In this document: one piece after another, positions 35,475 through 42,334 of the stretch
Layout: each line of letters begins with the position of its first letter
Numbering within the stretch: position 1 is the stretch's first letter
DNA from: Cyanocohniella sp. LLY
GTDB taxonomy: Bacteria; Cyanobacteriota; Cyanobacteriia; Cyanobacteriales; Nostocaceae
Reading direction: 5' to 3'
NCBI GenBank assembly: GCA_022241785.1
Contig: JAKOMP010000019.1
Coordinates: forward strand, 1 to 64,000
Length of the DNA: 64,000 nucleotides
Notes under the pieces: model-generated
Told to the model about the DNA's origin: nothing
Database searches by the model: none
What the model saw: the letters and a program-made list of their open reading frames with translations, nothing else
Program-made: the position numbers and the translations under genes

Positions 35475-37553
35475 TTGCATGTTGCTAAATTAACAAAGAA
35501 TATTAGAACCAAGCACAGTTACTTACAAACTCTTATGGTATCTACTACTACACGCTTCTCGGATGTTCAAAACCATTGGGCGCTTCCATTCATTGAAGCC
35601 CTAGCAGCACGGCGGATTTTAAATGGCTATCCTAATGGAACTTTTCGTCCCGATAATTCTGTGACTCGCGCTGAGTTCGCAGCCATAATTGGGGCGGTAT
35701 TTACAATGCCGCTGTTGCGGAAATATGTCCCTTTTGTGGATGTCCCGGCTAATCACTGGGCCATAAGTGCCATTCAAAAAACTTACGAAACGGGATTTCT
35801 CATCGGCTATCCTGATGGGCGTTTTCGTCCCAATGACCGAATTTTCCGCAGCGATGTTTTAGTTGCTTTGGTCAATGGCTTGAATATTGCGGCTGATGTC
35901 AAACCTGATTTGTTGAGTGCTCTACCACAAATTTATCAAGATGCAGATAAAATTCCTGGTTATGCCAGAAGCCAAGTAGCTATTGCTACTAGTATAAATT
36001 TAGTGGCGAGTCATCCCAATGTAAAATTACTCAACCCGACTGTAGCGGCAACTCGCGCTGAAGTATCAGTAATGGTATATCAAGCTTTGGTGTATTTGGG
36101 GCAGATAGAAAAAATAGCTTCCAACTTCATCATAGTGCCACCGCTAGCCGTGCCAACTTCGGGAACTGTGAGTGTCAGTCATCAGCGAGAGTTTCGCGCG
36201 GCCTGGGTAACAACAGTTTGGAATAGTGATTGGCCTTCCAAAGCGGGACTTCCTGTAGCCCAACAGCAAGCGGAATTTTTAGAAATTCTCAACCGCCTCC
36301 AAGCATTAAACTTTAACGCCCTAATTTTGCAAGTGCGACCAGAGGGCGATGCTTTATATTCTTCCCCATTAGAGCCGTGGAGTGCTTGGCTGACGGGAAC
36401 TCAAGGTAGAGCGCCAGAACCATTTTATGATCCTTTAGAGTTTGCGATCGCAGAATGTCACAAGCGTAATATTGAACTTCATGCTTGGTTTAATCCTTAC
36501 CGCGCCAAAACTAGTCTCACAGCTAGACCCAATGCCCGCCCCCATATAGCTTTGACCAATCCCGAAGTAGTTTACCAGTGGGGTACTCAGCTATGGATGG
36601 ACCCAGGAATCAAAATTGTCCAAGATAGAGCCTATAACGTCATTATGGATGTTGTCAGTCGCTACAATTTGGATGGCATTCACCTAGATGATTATTTTTA
36701 CCCTTATCCCATCCAGGGTCAGACTTTCCCCGATGATAAAACCTATGCAGCATATAGGGCTACAGGTGGTGGACTTAGCTTAGGTGATTGGCGACGAGAA
36801 AATGTCAATCAAATGGTGTTGCGTCTATTTCAGGGAATTAAAGCTACAAAGCCCCATGTCAAATTTGGCATTAGTCCTTTTGGGATTTATCGACCTGGAC
36901 AACCACCAGGAATCACTGGCTTAGATGCCTATAATGTGCTTTATGCCGATGCTAAAAAATGGTTAGAGCAAGGCTGGGTTGATTATATGGCCCCCCAACT
37001 TTATTGGCGCACTGATCAAACAGCTCAGAGTTACCCAGTATTACTGCAATGGTGGACAGGAATTAATCCCCAACGACGACATATATATGTAGGTAATACT
37101 CTTAGTCAACTAGATGGTAAGGCCTGGAAAGATGAAGAAATTGATAAACAAGTAAAAATTACGCGCAACCTTGTAGGAAACTTAGCATTAGGAAACATTT
37201 TCTTCAGCATGACTCCGATTAATCAAAATCGCCAAGGCATTGCTGATAGATTCCAAAATTCACTTTATGCTAGTCCTGCAATAGTACCTACCATGCCTTG
37301 GCAGAATACAGTTGCACCACCTCCTCCTAAAGAACTGCAAGTTAACAATCGTCGGTTAAGTTGGCAACTAGGTGATAATCAACCTGTTCGTTCTTGGACT
37401 CTATACCGCCAAACTGGTACTACTTGGATACTTCAGCGGGTTTTGTCTGCCGGTACAACTTTCGCCACTGTGCAACAAGCTGGAACCTATGCCGTATGTG
37501 CAGTTGATAGATTGGCAAATGAGAGTTTAGGAACAGTAATTGCCGTAAGTTAG
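35475..37553 (+). CDS. SLH-domain protein with GHL10-type glycoside hydrolase domain
   Basis: SLH repeats FSDVQNHWALPFIEALAARRILNGYPNGTFRPDNSVTRAEFAAII and FVDVPANHWAISAIQKTYETGFLIGYPDGRFRPNDRIFRSD; GHL10 EFRAAWVTTVWNSDWPSKAG...NFNALILQVRPEGDALYSSPLEPWSAWLTG...GIHLDDYFYPYP. Confidence 0.95.
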   Translation: MHVAKLTKNIRTKHSYLQTLMVSTTTRFSDVQNHWALPFIEALAARRILNGYPNGTFRPDNSVTRAEFAAIIGAVFTMPLLRKYVPFVDVPANHWAISAIQKTYETGFLIGYPDGRFRPNDRIFRSDVLVALVNGLNIAADVKPDLLSALPQIYQDADKIPGYARSQVAIATSINLVASHPNVKLLNPTVAATRAEVSVMVYQALVYLGQIEKIASNFIIVPPLAVPTSGTVSVSHQREFRAAWVTTVWNSDWPSKAGLPVAQQQAEFLEILNRLQALNFNALILQVRPEGDALYSSPLEPWSAWLTGTQGRAPEPFYDPLEFAIAECHKRNIELHAWFNPYRAKTSLTARPNARPHIALTNPEVVYQWGTQLWMDPGIKIVQDRAYNVIMDVVSRYNLDGIHLDDYFYPYPIQGQTFPDDKTYAAYRATGGGLSLGDWRRENVNQMVLRLFQGIKATKPHVKFGISPFGIYRPGQPPGITGLDAYNVLYADAKKWLEQGWVDYMAPQLYWRTDQTAQSYPVLLQWWTGINPQRRHIYVGNTLSQLDGKAWKDEEIDKQVKITRNLVGNLALGNIFFSMTPINQNRQGIADRFQNSLYASPAIVPTMPWQNTVAPPPPKELQVNNRRLSWQLGDNQPVRSWTLYRQTGTTWILQRVLSAGTTFATVQQAGTYAVCAVDRLANESLGTVIAVS

Positions 37554-37633: not shown

Positions 37634-40255
37634 CTAATTACCAATACATTGACTCAGCAAAACTTCTAAATCATTGTTTACCTGTTCAAGTTCTTGACGC
37701 TTTTGATAAATCAACTCTTTTTCAGCTTCGCGTTGTTCCAGAGTTTCTTGATGAGCTTTTTCTTGTTGTTCCAGAAGGTTTTCATAAAGTGCGATCGCTT
37801 GCTCAATTACTCGGCTTGCTGACTCAACACGGCTATCAAAAATTGTGTTAATTATTTCTTTTAACTTATTATAAAATTCCTGTTTTGAGTCTTTCAACTT
37901 TTTAGTACCTGTGTCAGAAACTTTCTTCTTTATTTGGTCGTTTAATCCATCTAAATCAAGCATTCCTAAACCAAATGAACTAGCAATTGTAGCAGCAAGA
38001 CTAGCGACAACAACTGCAATGAATCCAATTCCTGCGAATACTATTAACCCCGCTGCTAAAGCAGCACCTATTCCCAGCCCTCCACCTATTCCTCCGAGAC
38101 CCATAAAATCATCATGGATACCAGTAATGGAAAGATCCATTTGTTTACTAAAATTTGTTTTAATCTTCTGATCTAAGCGTTGAAAATCTTCTTGAATCGC
38201 TTCTATTTCGTAAGCAATATTTGCATCTAAATAATCAACACCTTCTTTGATGATAATATCTTTTAGTGTCTGATTACCCCACTCATCTATTTCTTTTGAT
38301 AAGTCTCTGATAAATTGATTAGTATAATCTTTAATCAGTTTGTCTTGGCTTGTAACTGGGTTATGTTCCGAATACCAAATTTGACTTTTTTTAGCCATCT
38401 TTTTATCTAATTTCTTAAGCCACTCATCCCAAGACTTAGTAGCTTCTTCATAAACTTTCGTTACTAAATTAGATAATAATTTACGTATTTTTACATCTCG
38501 TCCACTGGCTTCTCCTATCTTTTCTAAAATTCCTAACTTTTCAGCCTCAGAAATTTGAATTTTTCCGTTTAAAGTATTTTCAGATTGAGATAAAGCATTG
38601 AAACATTTGTGAATTATTTTATTAATTTGACTGACAGAAGATTCAATTTTTACTCTGCCACTTTCAACTGTAAGAAATTGCTCAAGAGAAGAAGTAAAAT
38701 TTTGAAAGCTTTGCAAATACTCATTTTCTACTCCCTGTAAAATGGCATCTAGTGTAGCTTGAGCAGAAATTAAATGAACGCGGTTGTTACCTGTAACTAA
38801 GGGCTTTTGACCCAAGACAAACTTTTCAATTCTCTGTCTTACTTGTTCACGACCTTTCTCACTACGCACTAAATCTATGAAATTACCTACTACAAAAAGA
38901 TTATTGGCAGGTTCATTTTCTTGACCATGATTTAGTTGAATTTTTATATCCTGGAGTAAGTCACGCTCTCCTTGAGATAAGGAACATGAAGCATTAGTGA
39001 GAAAAATGACTGCATCAGTATCTTTGAGCAATCTTTGTGTAACTGTAGTGCGGTCAGGATGTTCGTTTAAGCCTGGAGAGTCTATGATTTCCACCCCACT
39101 ACTACATAACTCTAAATCAGGATGCTCAAAAACAATTTCTGCAATTTCCGAATGTGCTAATTCATCACTGAGACAACCTAATGCTGCTTCTTCTGAAATT
39201 GTCGCTTTTAGTTGATACTCTTCAGCAGGTATCTCTTCTTCTCGTCCATCTTTATAACGGCAAGTTACTCGTTTTTTAGTGCCATATTTTAAAACGGTTA
39301 TTGCACCACTACAAGGAATTTCCCTCACAGGTTGTATTTCTTCCCCTAGTAAAGCATTTAAAAAAGTTGATTTACCTCGGCTAAATTCACCGACAACTGC
39401 TAACCTAAATTGTTGAGATTGCAATTTTTTAAATACTTGGTTGGCTTCTTCTATCAAAGTATGAGGAAGAAATTCTTGCTGCTGGCATTCCTCAATAATT
39501 TCAAAAATCTGATTACAATAATTATCTAATTTTTTATGACGGCTTTGAACCTTTTTAAATTCTTTGTAATCTATATTCTTCTGCTGTTTAGTATTTTTGT
39601 GTTCTAGCTTAACAGGTAAAGTCTTCAGAATATCACTGGCGGCTTTGACAAATATAGTATCCAGTTCTTGGAAACGAGAGGGGTCAAGTAAAAAATGCAC
39701 TTCATTGACAGCAGTAAGTTCTACATTTCCATGATGAGTAAATCCAGTTTCTAAAACTGCTAAGTGTTGTAGATTAATCCCTAACTGCTTGGCAACTATT
39801 TGTAAATACTTTTTCTCACGGGAATCCATGTCTCCATCTGCGGCTGATATTTCATAACCAAAGTTGATTAACAACAATCTTTCTGATTCGGAAAGTGGAG
39901 CCGCAAGTGTCAATAAGTCATTAGCTTTTTGATAAACTTGATTTTCTTTTACACCCTTAATCATCAAATGTGTTAATCGACGCACATCACTGTCTGGAAG
40001 GCTAAATCGATAAACAATGGTCAGTAACCTTTGCTTTTCCGACTCAGCTACTTTGCCATCTACAAATATCACTCCCAGTAATACTGTGACTAAATTTGCT
40101 AAAAATATTACAAGCGGCGTGATATCTCGTTGACTCAGTTTTTGTCCTGTGATGCGCGACAATAATTCAATAGTCTGAGCGCCGACCTGTGCAGTTTTCA
40201 TAAAGATTGTGAGCCGATAAAGTTTTCCAGTTTTAGTATGCCCAGGTTTTACCAA
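37634..40255 (-). CDS. TerB-like domain plus dynamin-family GTPase
   Basis: TerB-like NFGYEISAADGDMDSREKKYLQIVAKQLGI; G1 GEFSRGKSTFLNALLG, G3 DSPGL; hydrophobic segment GIGAALAAGLIVFAGIGFIAVVVASLAATIASSFG; C-terminal coiled coil. Confidence 0.9.
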   Translation of the reverse strand: MVKPGHTKTGKLYRLTIFMKTAQVGAQTIELLSRITGQKLSQRDITPLVIFLANLVTVLLGVIFVDGKVAESEKQRLLTIVYRFSLPDSDVRRLTHLMIKGVKENQVYQKANDLLTLAAPLSESERLLLINFGYEISAADGDMDSREKKYLQIVAKQLGINLQHLAVLETGFTHHGNVELTAVNEVHFLLDPSRFQELDTIFVKAASDILKTLPVKLEHKNTKQQKNIDYKEFKKVQSRHKKLDNYCNQIFEIIEECQQQEFLPHTLIEEANQVFKKLQSQQFRLAVVGEFSRGKSTFLNALLGEEIQPVREIPCSGAITVLKYGTKKRVTCRYKDGREEEIPAEEYQLKATISEEAALGCLSDELAHSEIAEIVFEHPDLELCSSGVEIIDSPGLNEHPDRTTVTQRLLKDTDAVIFLTNASCSLSQGERDLLQDIKIQLNHGQENEPANNLFVVGNFIDLVRSEKGREQVRQRIEKFVLGQKPLVTGNNRVHLISAQATLDAILQGVENEYLQSFQNFTSSLEQFLTVESGRVKIESSVSQINKIIHKCFNALSQSENTLNGKIQISEAEKLGILEKIGEASGRDVKIRKLLSNLVTKVYEEATKSWDEWLKKLDKKMAKKSQIWYSEHNPVTSQDKLIKDYTNQFIRDLSKEIDEWGNQTLKDIIIKEGVDYLDANIAYEIEAIQEDFQRLDQKIKTNFSKQMDLSITGIHDDFMGLGGIGGGLGIGAALAAGLIVFAGIGFIAVVVASLAATIASSFGLGMLDLDGLNDQIKKKVSDTGTKKLKDSKQEFYNKLKEIINTIFDSRVESASRVIEQAIALYENLLEQQEKAHQETLEQREAEKELIYQKRQELEQVNNDLEVLLSQCIGN

Positions 40256-40344
40256 AATTCACTTATTTACCGAATAATTACGGTTATATTTTTGACTTAT
40301 AATTAGTTAGGCTCAGAAAAATTAGCTTTTAGTAATGCAGAAAT

Positions 40345-41640
40345 ATGTTGTTCCAATTTGCCCCTGCAATTCGAGCTGGTATTGAAACTGGTAAATATAT
40401 TCAAGTCTTGAGCAATGGAATACCAATCAGTATGGCTAGAGATGGAGCTACGGGACAGTTTATTGCTCATGCGATTGGTGCAACAGTCAATAATAGCCCT
40501 TTATCACCCCTGGTAGTTGCTCCTAATTTGTTGATAAATGGGATGCAAATGTATCAAAACCATCAAGGCTTTACATCTGTACTCAATAGTCTGCAAACTT
40601 TACAAACTAGCTTGGGAGTGTTGCAAGCCACAACAGCTTTGATTGGTGTGGGAACAATCGCAGGTGTAGCACTAACAGCAGTCAATCTACATCAGACACT
40701 CAAGCTGAGAAAAGAAGTAGAGCAAATGCGGCTGGAAGTCAAAAATGGCTTTATTGACTTAAAACAAGCTTTAAAAGACCAAGGAGCAGAAATTCGACAA
40801 TTAATTGAAGAAGTAGCCCAAGATATCAAATTTGAACAACATCGTACTGTTTTAATTCGGGCGTATGGGCTGTTTATCCAGGCGATGAACCGCTTTCGTT
40901 CAGCAATGCAATTACAGGATATGAACCGGAGAAACGCTGAGATTGATGGTGTGCGGGGAATGTTATTTGAGGCTTTAGCCGATTACACTAATCCTCATTT
41001 GTTATCAGAAACTTGTGCAGCTGGACAACTCCGCAGACTGGAATGTGCTTGGACAATTGAACAGGGGATTATTGCGACATATCAAGCCCAAAACGAAATG
41101 TCAGCCGTTAGCGATAGACTTTACCATCTGCAAAATACCATCAGTGAAAATGCTTGCATGGTAATCAATTCATGCGAATCATGCGATGAACTTGATTTTC
41201 TTTTCCCTGAAATCAGCCGGATTCGTAACCACGATTTAGCAGTTGTGGAAACATGGCATCATCAAGTTGAGTGGATGCGATCGCTATCTCCATCAGATCT
41301 GAAACTCTTAAATAGCGCTGATTTCAATACTTCAGAATCTAACGACACCCCAGACACCAACGCAGCCACAACTGCTTTAGTACCACCAGAACAACTAACG
41401 TATGAAAATTTAAGTGAAAAATCTCACTTTGCTTCTCTGCGTGACCAGTTACTATTTATATTTAAGCCAGCGCTACGTAAAGACTATGAAGCCTACGTAA
41501 ATCAACAAGCTGGTGTTGCTGGTTACAGAACATTATTTCCTAAGAATTTACAGCAAGCTTCAGATTTAACGGTTGCTAATCTTTATTACTACTTCAAGAT
41601 TCGAGATGAATCGAAAGTTGAGCAAGAACAAGCAGTGTAG
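40345..41640 (+). CDS. Hypothetical protein with TM segment plus coiled coil
   Basis: ATTALIGVGTIAGVALTAVNLHQTLKLRKEVEQMRLEVKNGFIDLKQALKDQGAEIRQLIEEV; divergent from the dynamin gene. Confidence 0.75.
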   Translation: MLFQFAPAIRAGIETGKYIQVLSNGIPISMARDGATGQFIAHAIGATVNNSPLSPLVVAPNLLINGMQMYQNHQGFTSVLNSLQTLQTSLGVLQATTALIGVGTIAGVALTAVNLHQTLKLRKEVEQMRLEVKNGFIDLKQALKDQGAEIRQLIEEVAQDIKFEQHRTVLIRAYGLFIQAMNRFRSAMQLQDMNRRNAEIDGVRGMLFEALADYTNPHLLSETCAAGQLRRLECAWTIEQGIIATYQAQNEMSAVSDRLYHLQNTISENACMVINSCESCDELDFLFPEISRIRNHDLAVVETWHHQVEWMRSLSPSDLKLLNSADFNTSESNDTPDTNAATTALVPPEQLTYENLSEKSHFASLRDQLLFIFKPALRKDYEAYVNQQAGVAGYRTLFPKNLQQASDLTVANLYYYFKIRDESKVEQEQAV

Positions 41641-41722
41641 GTTATGACAACAAAGCAGTATCTAGTTTCTCAATCACAAAATTCTGAAGTACAAGAAATT
41701 CATCTTCTCTAATTAACTAAAT

Positions 41723-42334
41723 ATGGGCGTATTTAACAAAATTACAGCAACGTTTCAGGAGTCTAGACAATTTATCAAGAAAAGTCTAGAAGAATACATT
41801 ATGTTTAGCTCAGAAGCTAAACAATTGACTTTGAAAAATAAAATGGTTTTACTTCTCTGTCAACAAGCTATATCTAGAGTTGAGCAATTGAAAAGCTTAG
41901 AACCAGACTCTGAGGAAGGGCTGATTGCGACAATAGAGTATAATAAAATACAAGTAAAATTACATTTTACTCCTGAAAAAATTACTCTTCATGAAGATTG
42001 TATTGCAGGTGAACTTCGTTTATTAAAGCAACCTGAATTTGACACAGAATCAATAATTTACCGTTACCTCATCGCAGGTTGGAAAACATTTTTGGGAGGT
42101 AAAATACCCAATGGTACTTTACCAAAAGAAGTGAAAATCGAAAATGATAAGGTTTACTATACTCTCCCTCGAAATCAGTTACAGCTTTTAGATTCCCTTT
42201 TCCATAATCTGGAAACTGGTTCTGCTTTGATAACTAACCTTAAACAAGGGGATTTAACTATTGAAACTTCAGTAGCTTTGAGTTGGAATAATTTCAAACT
42301 TCAAAATCTGCTTCAACTTTTGAATCCAAAATAG
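41723..42334 (+). CDS. Hypothetical protein, codirectional with 40345..41640
   Basis: 203 aa ORF, short spacing (82 nt). Confidence 0.7.
   Translation: MGVFNKITATFQESRQFIKKSLEEYIMFSSEAKQLTLKNKMVLLLCQQAISRVEQLKSLEPDSEEGLIATIEYNKIQVKLHFTPEKITLHEDCIAGELRLLKQPEFDTESIIYRYLIAGWKTFLGGKIPNGTLPKEVKIENDKVYYTLPRNQLQLLDSLFHNLETGSALITNLKQGDLTIETSVALSWNNFKLQNLLQLLNPK

Follow-up and report, generated by a model that had tools for sequence, protein, structure and literature searches.

Does the dynamin-like gene in a 64,000-nucleotide stretch of the genome of the cyanobacterium Cyanocohniella sp. LLY (contig JAKOMP010000019.1; hereafter the window) belong to a fixed multi-gene system, and what might such a system do? 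The initial annotation proposed a three-gene membrane-remodelling locus, in which a TerB-dynamin GTPase, a divergent 431-aa protein (P431) and a 203-aa protein (P203) could serve membrane surveillance or phage defence. The in vivo role of cyanobacterial bacterial dynamin-like proteins (BDLPs) has still to be settled, although BDLP1 serves as the structural model of both mitofusins and dynamins (PMC5827413).

A dynamin stalk gene and its partner P431

All three open reading frames were recovered (Table 1), with P431 divergent to the dynamin gene as originally described. The reported dynamin length of 873 aa and the gap of about 90 nt rest on a TTG start and were revised. Homologues begin at a methionine matching window residue 19 (MDTSLV..TVxLLSRITGQKL), and the codon of that methionine in the window is an ATG at 40201, so the gene most likely starts there, giving the shorter protein and the wider spacer of Table 1. 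An SLH and GHL10 glycosyl-hydrolase-like protein is encoded at 35475-37553, convergent with the dynamin gene, and shows no sign of module membership.

Table 1. Features of the locus (positions in the window; aa, amino acids; KD, hydropathy)
Feature	Position	Strand	Remarks
TerB-BDLP gene	37634..40201	-	855 aa, counted from conserved ATG
TTG-start version of the TerB-BDLP ORF	37634-40255	-	873 aa
TerB domain	39767..40093	-	Pfam PF05099, E 1.7e-13; same place in genome search
Dynamin_N GTPase domain	38951..39403	-	Pfam PF00350, E 3.1e-27; GEFSRGKST, DSPGL, G4 NFID
Stalk/paddle region (part always adjoining P431)	37634..38728	-
Hydrophobic paddle core	38003..38059	-	19-residue KD mean 2.70 at residue 733; aligns with BDLP1 paddle region
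Divergent intergenic region	40202..40344	none	143 nt, common to both genes
P431 gene	40345..41640	+	431-aa partner, no known family
P431 hydrophobic hairpin	40606..40692	+	residues ~88-116; hydropathy, predicted helices, alignments
P203 gene	41723..42334	+	facultative neighbour, no known family; 82 nt downstream of P431

The window dynamin is a BDLP-family protein preceded by a TerB domain, because a profile of 39 dynamin homologues matched BDLP1 of Nostoc punctiforme across GTPase, stalk and paddle (residues 213-842, E 2e-44) and BDLP1 was also the closest fold (2j69_A, TM 0.67 by target) to its AF2 model (mean pLDDT 81). Its assignment as a dynamin-family membrane GTPase was thereby borne out in sequence and fold. 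The TerB-like region scored 51.3 bits against a Pfam gathering score of 24.4, which places it in the TerB family, the Dynamin_N match likewise exceeded its Pfam cut-off, and the long hydrophobic segment was located at residues ~733-751. Besides the dynamin GTPase motifs (GxxxxGKS/T, DxPG), the window protein has a neck/trunk stalk and paddle homologous to those of BDLP1, as do all intact GTPase-bearing partners of P431. None of the 64 GTPase-bearing homologues examined has lost the P-loop or the DxPGL motif; their G4 motif is mostly NFxD (NFID in the window protein, NAWD in BDLP1). From BDLP1 (PDB 2j68/2j69; Tandem B clade) the window protein differs by its N-terminal TerB domain and by a divergent partner that is not a second dynamin.

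That partner was correctly described as carrying one hydrophobic hairpin followed by a long helix. Hydropathy peaks at residue 95, within a hydrophobic stretch near residues 88-116, and a confident predicted structure (pLDDT 81, pTM 0.83) starts with a small beta part at the N-terminus and continues with a helical hairpin of hydrophobic character (helices 73-100 and 103-112) and then long helices forming a large bundle. No significant match to P431 was found in Pfam, NCBIfam or PADLOC, its profile found no relative among PDB sequences, and fold searches returned no PDB chain and no viral fold model at E<=0.001. We therefore rejected the idea that P431 is an already known toxin or fold. A ClyA/HBL-type alpha pore-forming toxin was also rejected, since the fold is not shared and toxin matches appeared only at E>1 and TM<0.2. 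The suggested pore or anchor function found no counterpart in these fold searches; with no fold relative to go by, hydropathy is what suggests a membrane role for P431.

A stalk-only profile, run on 248 cyanobacterial genomes, placed P431 beside all 27 evaluable intact stalk genes, a count that leaves aside a few remnants as well as two stalk genes situated at the ends of contigs (G034, G195). The stalk profile A5 did not pick up the other BDLP stalks of the window genome. From the side of P431 we surveyed 80 loci taken from an all-species scan, to which the genome search added 28 more; the former lean towards the window's relatives because the best 80 of 199 were taken. Where roughly 1 kb or more of upstream sequence is available, a full-length P431 ORF is almost always accompanied by a stalk-bearing partner, contig-end ambiguities arising from draft assemblies. 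Exceptions with an intact P431 ORF are L140, which retains only a 90-aa remnant of the partner, and L142 and L174, whose partners are truncated or broken up by a different ORF. P431 and stalk distances correlate in mirror-tree comparison (r 0.83, permutation maximum 0.24; 0.88 for pairs of the TerB-GTPase-stalk type alone), which is supporting evidence only, as r includes common species history. The association of the two genes is far from chance, and the unit consists of the dynamin/stalk gene and P431, their pairing being obligate in evaluable cases.

The dedicated hairpin-bearing partner of the initial proposal thus stood, whereas its third gene did not. P203 adjoins the pair in just 3 of 10 P203-bearing genomes, in two of them on the far side of the dynamin gene, so we rejected a three-gene unit. 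It lies downstream of P431 in the window and in L114, L122 and L140, beyond the dynamin end in L080 and L087, and elsewhere in most genomes. P203 has no significant match in Pfam, NCBIfam or PADLOC, and is a facultative, loosely linked neighbour. One homologue, on an 86-kb contig (L112; G053:C2), sits beside a protein of 1091 aa and one of 513 aa that looks actin/DnaK-like, both as judged by eye, and another lies directly upstream of a different dynamin-like gene of 793 aa (L106:8404-12812; G043).

Exchangeable modules on both proteins

Stalk partners occur as intact ORFs in four architectures: TerB-GTPase-stalk, the form of the window; GTPase-stalk (L080, L082, L132, L134); TerB-stalk (L149, L161, L173, L184, L193); and stalk alone, of about 340 aa (L088, L090, L091, L096, L103-L105, L178-L181, L187). 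The initial annotation was to be given up if homologues of P431 were routinely found apart from the dynamin gene, and on this point the result counts against it in part. P431 does occur without a GTPase domain, beside TerB-stalk and stalk-only proteins, but never without the stalk. Lacking the GTPase head, the latter two kinds of partner are to be regarded as BDLP-stalk derivatives and not as BDLPs. Of the 60 GTPase-bearing partners, 59 have a stalk hydropathy of >=1.74 (L145, the remaining one, is truncated), and all 16 GTPase-less ones stay at <=1.57, a pattern indicating that the GTPase head and the predicted membrane-inserting paddle are either both present or both missing. TerB and GTPase modules are each optional on the stalk protein. 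A quick P431 tree calls for 3 or more switches in GTPase presence and 6 or more in TerB presence; gain and loss are indistinguishable on this tree because its root is not known and some rows are long-branched. A free-standing TerB orthologue of the dynamin N-terminus (198 aa) lies between housekeeping genes in Microcoleaceae (L061:1492-2088; G097), with further matches in G127, G203, G041 and G195.

P431 is modular at its other end. The core, about 425 aa long, closes with a conserved VANLYYYF-like motif and is followed by nothing, by an AcpP-like ACP, by GUN4, or by a long module in which a Gly-rich membrane segment may be present; these modules were found solely as fusions. The ACP retains its DSL serine in L129, L135, L136, L138, L141, L144, L152, L158, L168, L177 and L082, and an ACP-like domain without this serine is present in L078 and L162. 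GUN4 is fused to P431 in L140 and L142, where the dynamin partner is only a remnant, and in L176, whose contig ends before the partner. The extension state switches at least 15 times on the P431 tree. Among Microcoleus-type loci with common flanks, L168 (with ACP) and L167 (without) are collinear on both sides at 90-93% identity, and the ~600 bp encoding the ACP module in L168 are absent from L167; L165, L162 and L159 have other modules at the same site. Related Microcoleus have thus swapped the C-terminal modules of P431 at a single syntenic position. A small Gly-rich hydrophobic protein without a Pfam match is encoded downstream of P431 in L156 (5071-5430), and its gene is variably present in Microcoleus-type loci (also L154, L158, L167, L168, L190).

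Proposed function of the pair

We consider it somewhat better than even (probability about 0.55) that the two proteins form an obligate, signal-regulated membrane-remodelling module of cyanobacteria. The stalk would bind P431 directly, and the complex would sit at the membrane via the P431 hairpin and, in GTPase forms, also via the paddle. In the window form, GTP-driven BDLP assembly may then remodel or hold together the membrane patch marked by P431. The TerB domain and the P431 C-terminal modules would feed in the cell-state signal that decides when the module acts, ACP perhaps reporting acyl-lipid supply and GUN4 tetrapyrrole status. In headless forms, P431 and a soluble stalk might do the job, or regulate it, without GTP. 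Because GTPase-less pairs exist, GTP-driven remodelling is not the universal activity. The intact P431 ORFs with broken partners (L140, L142, L174) also weigh against this reading. The likely role, as judged from the fused domains only, is to respond when the membrane is damaged or stressed, be it by abiotic causes or by an invader.

In filamentous cyanobacteria, the constant pairing, a GTPase that is dispensable where the stalk never is, and swappable domains on both proteins give the pair the look of an undescribed modular membrane machine. A further-reaching version deserves tentative mention. P431 and the BDLP-stalk protein could themselves be this machine, with a GTPase-free minimal form, the head and paddle as a removable drive, and ACP, GUN4 and membrane modules retargeting it, much as happens in polymorphic immune or stress systems; we regard this as conceivable but hold it with less confidence.

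Known systems, distribution and alternative readings

Among the closest known systems is Eleos, in which two dynamins, LeoA and LeoBC, lie side by side. The window protein is likewise a dynamin-family GTPase with weak similarity to LeoA (3e-16) and LeoBC (4e-12), but it is a single dynamin with an unrelated partner. Identity with Eleos was therefore rejected, there being no second dynamin and no dynamin similarity in P431. DynA of Bacillus subtilis has, to our knowledge, no TerB domain and no P431-like partner. DynA resembles the window protein as a bacterial dynamin tied to BDLP-type membrane surveillance and phage tolerance (PMC8844932), but it consists of two fused dynamin units (PMC4159319), unlike the window protein. 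The cyanobacterial BDLP clades described in one study (KGK, HSR1, chaperone, Tandem A/B and unclassified) also have conserved gene neighbours, but its main text presents no TerB-bearing clade and no P431-type neighbour (PMC5827413). Conflict systems of multicellular prokaryotes carry GUN4, a regulator fused in cyanobacterial systems of this kind, and other exchangeable modules on a conserved core, as P431 does, but with no dynamin, TerB or ACP core in the paper's text (PMC7159879). A literature search, with many subscription papers outside its reach, found no description of the TerB-dynamin pair.

Could the pair be an anti-phage or conflict system, with P431 a membrane-perturbing effector that the BDLP stalk checks or assembles, and TerB, ACP and GUN4 sensing invasion? 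This is a serious alternative, though less probable. Its presence is patchy, P431 occurring in 29 of 248 sampled cyanobacterial genomes and in 160 of 393 genomes of the window's order; the best 80 of its 199 relatives in the all-species scan were all cyanobacterial. Genomes with several architecturally different copies, the C-terminal swapping at a fixed site typical of polymorphic conflict systems, the precedent of GUN4 as a conflict-system regulator and, for defence, that of DynA would all fit. LeoA/LeoBC models match 33 of 39 members, but with the scores expected of any BDLP. Decay is also common, with deletions across the spacer in several lineages. In L153 (in a genome also holding L076), L085, L164 and L172, leftover sequences of both genes abut, the spacer and the P431 N-terminus being missing and usually the dynamin N-terminus too, while in L190 little of the dynamin is left and the N-terminus of P431 is gone. 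Against a conflict role, the intact P431 ORFs that persist beside broken partners argue that P431 is not obviously toxic. Together with the converse case (L175), these loci (L140, L142, L174) led us to reject a strict toxin-antitoxin logic. No copy was found in plasmid, phage or viral-contig collections, and cargo of mobile elements was rejected on that ground. Neighbours are mostly housekeeping genes, with no TerC/TerD-type genes among the neighbour families listed. PADLOC was run on 81 neighbours and, as controls, on 81 ORFs drawn from the same eight genomes. Matches to Uma2 (PDC-S03) covered up to 8 neighbour proteins, several from two sister species, against <=1 per family in the controls; beyond Uma2, this small matched comparison gave no excess. 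The phage-defence role first suggested for the locus thus found generic LeoA/LeoBC similarity, no second dynamin and no defence-island signal.

The concentration of the module in the window's order, its single copy in the window genome among housekeeping neighbours, and the constancy of neighbours across species at some Nostoc loci could instead point to a constitutive membrane-architecture factor of multicellular cyanobacteria, acting at the thylakoid, septum or heterocyst envelope. We think this unlikely, given that, even inside a family or genus, most genomes lack the module, and that it decays frequently and swaps domains rapidly. That the genes are divergent neighbours held together only by a common promoter, without physical interaction, is very improbable: most loci are head-to-head with gaps of 40-350 nt, but the order is a tandem operon in L089 and L186 (gaps 43-51 nt), and adjacency survives 1.3-1.5 kb of spacing in L148 and L155 as well as the loss of GTPase, paddle and TerB.

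Through the obligate partner and the natural variants that lack both GTPase and paddle, the binding target of the stalk and the purpose of the GTPase become directly accessible to genetics. The fusions to ACP and GUN4 point to lipid and pigment metabolism as sources of input that can be put to the test.
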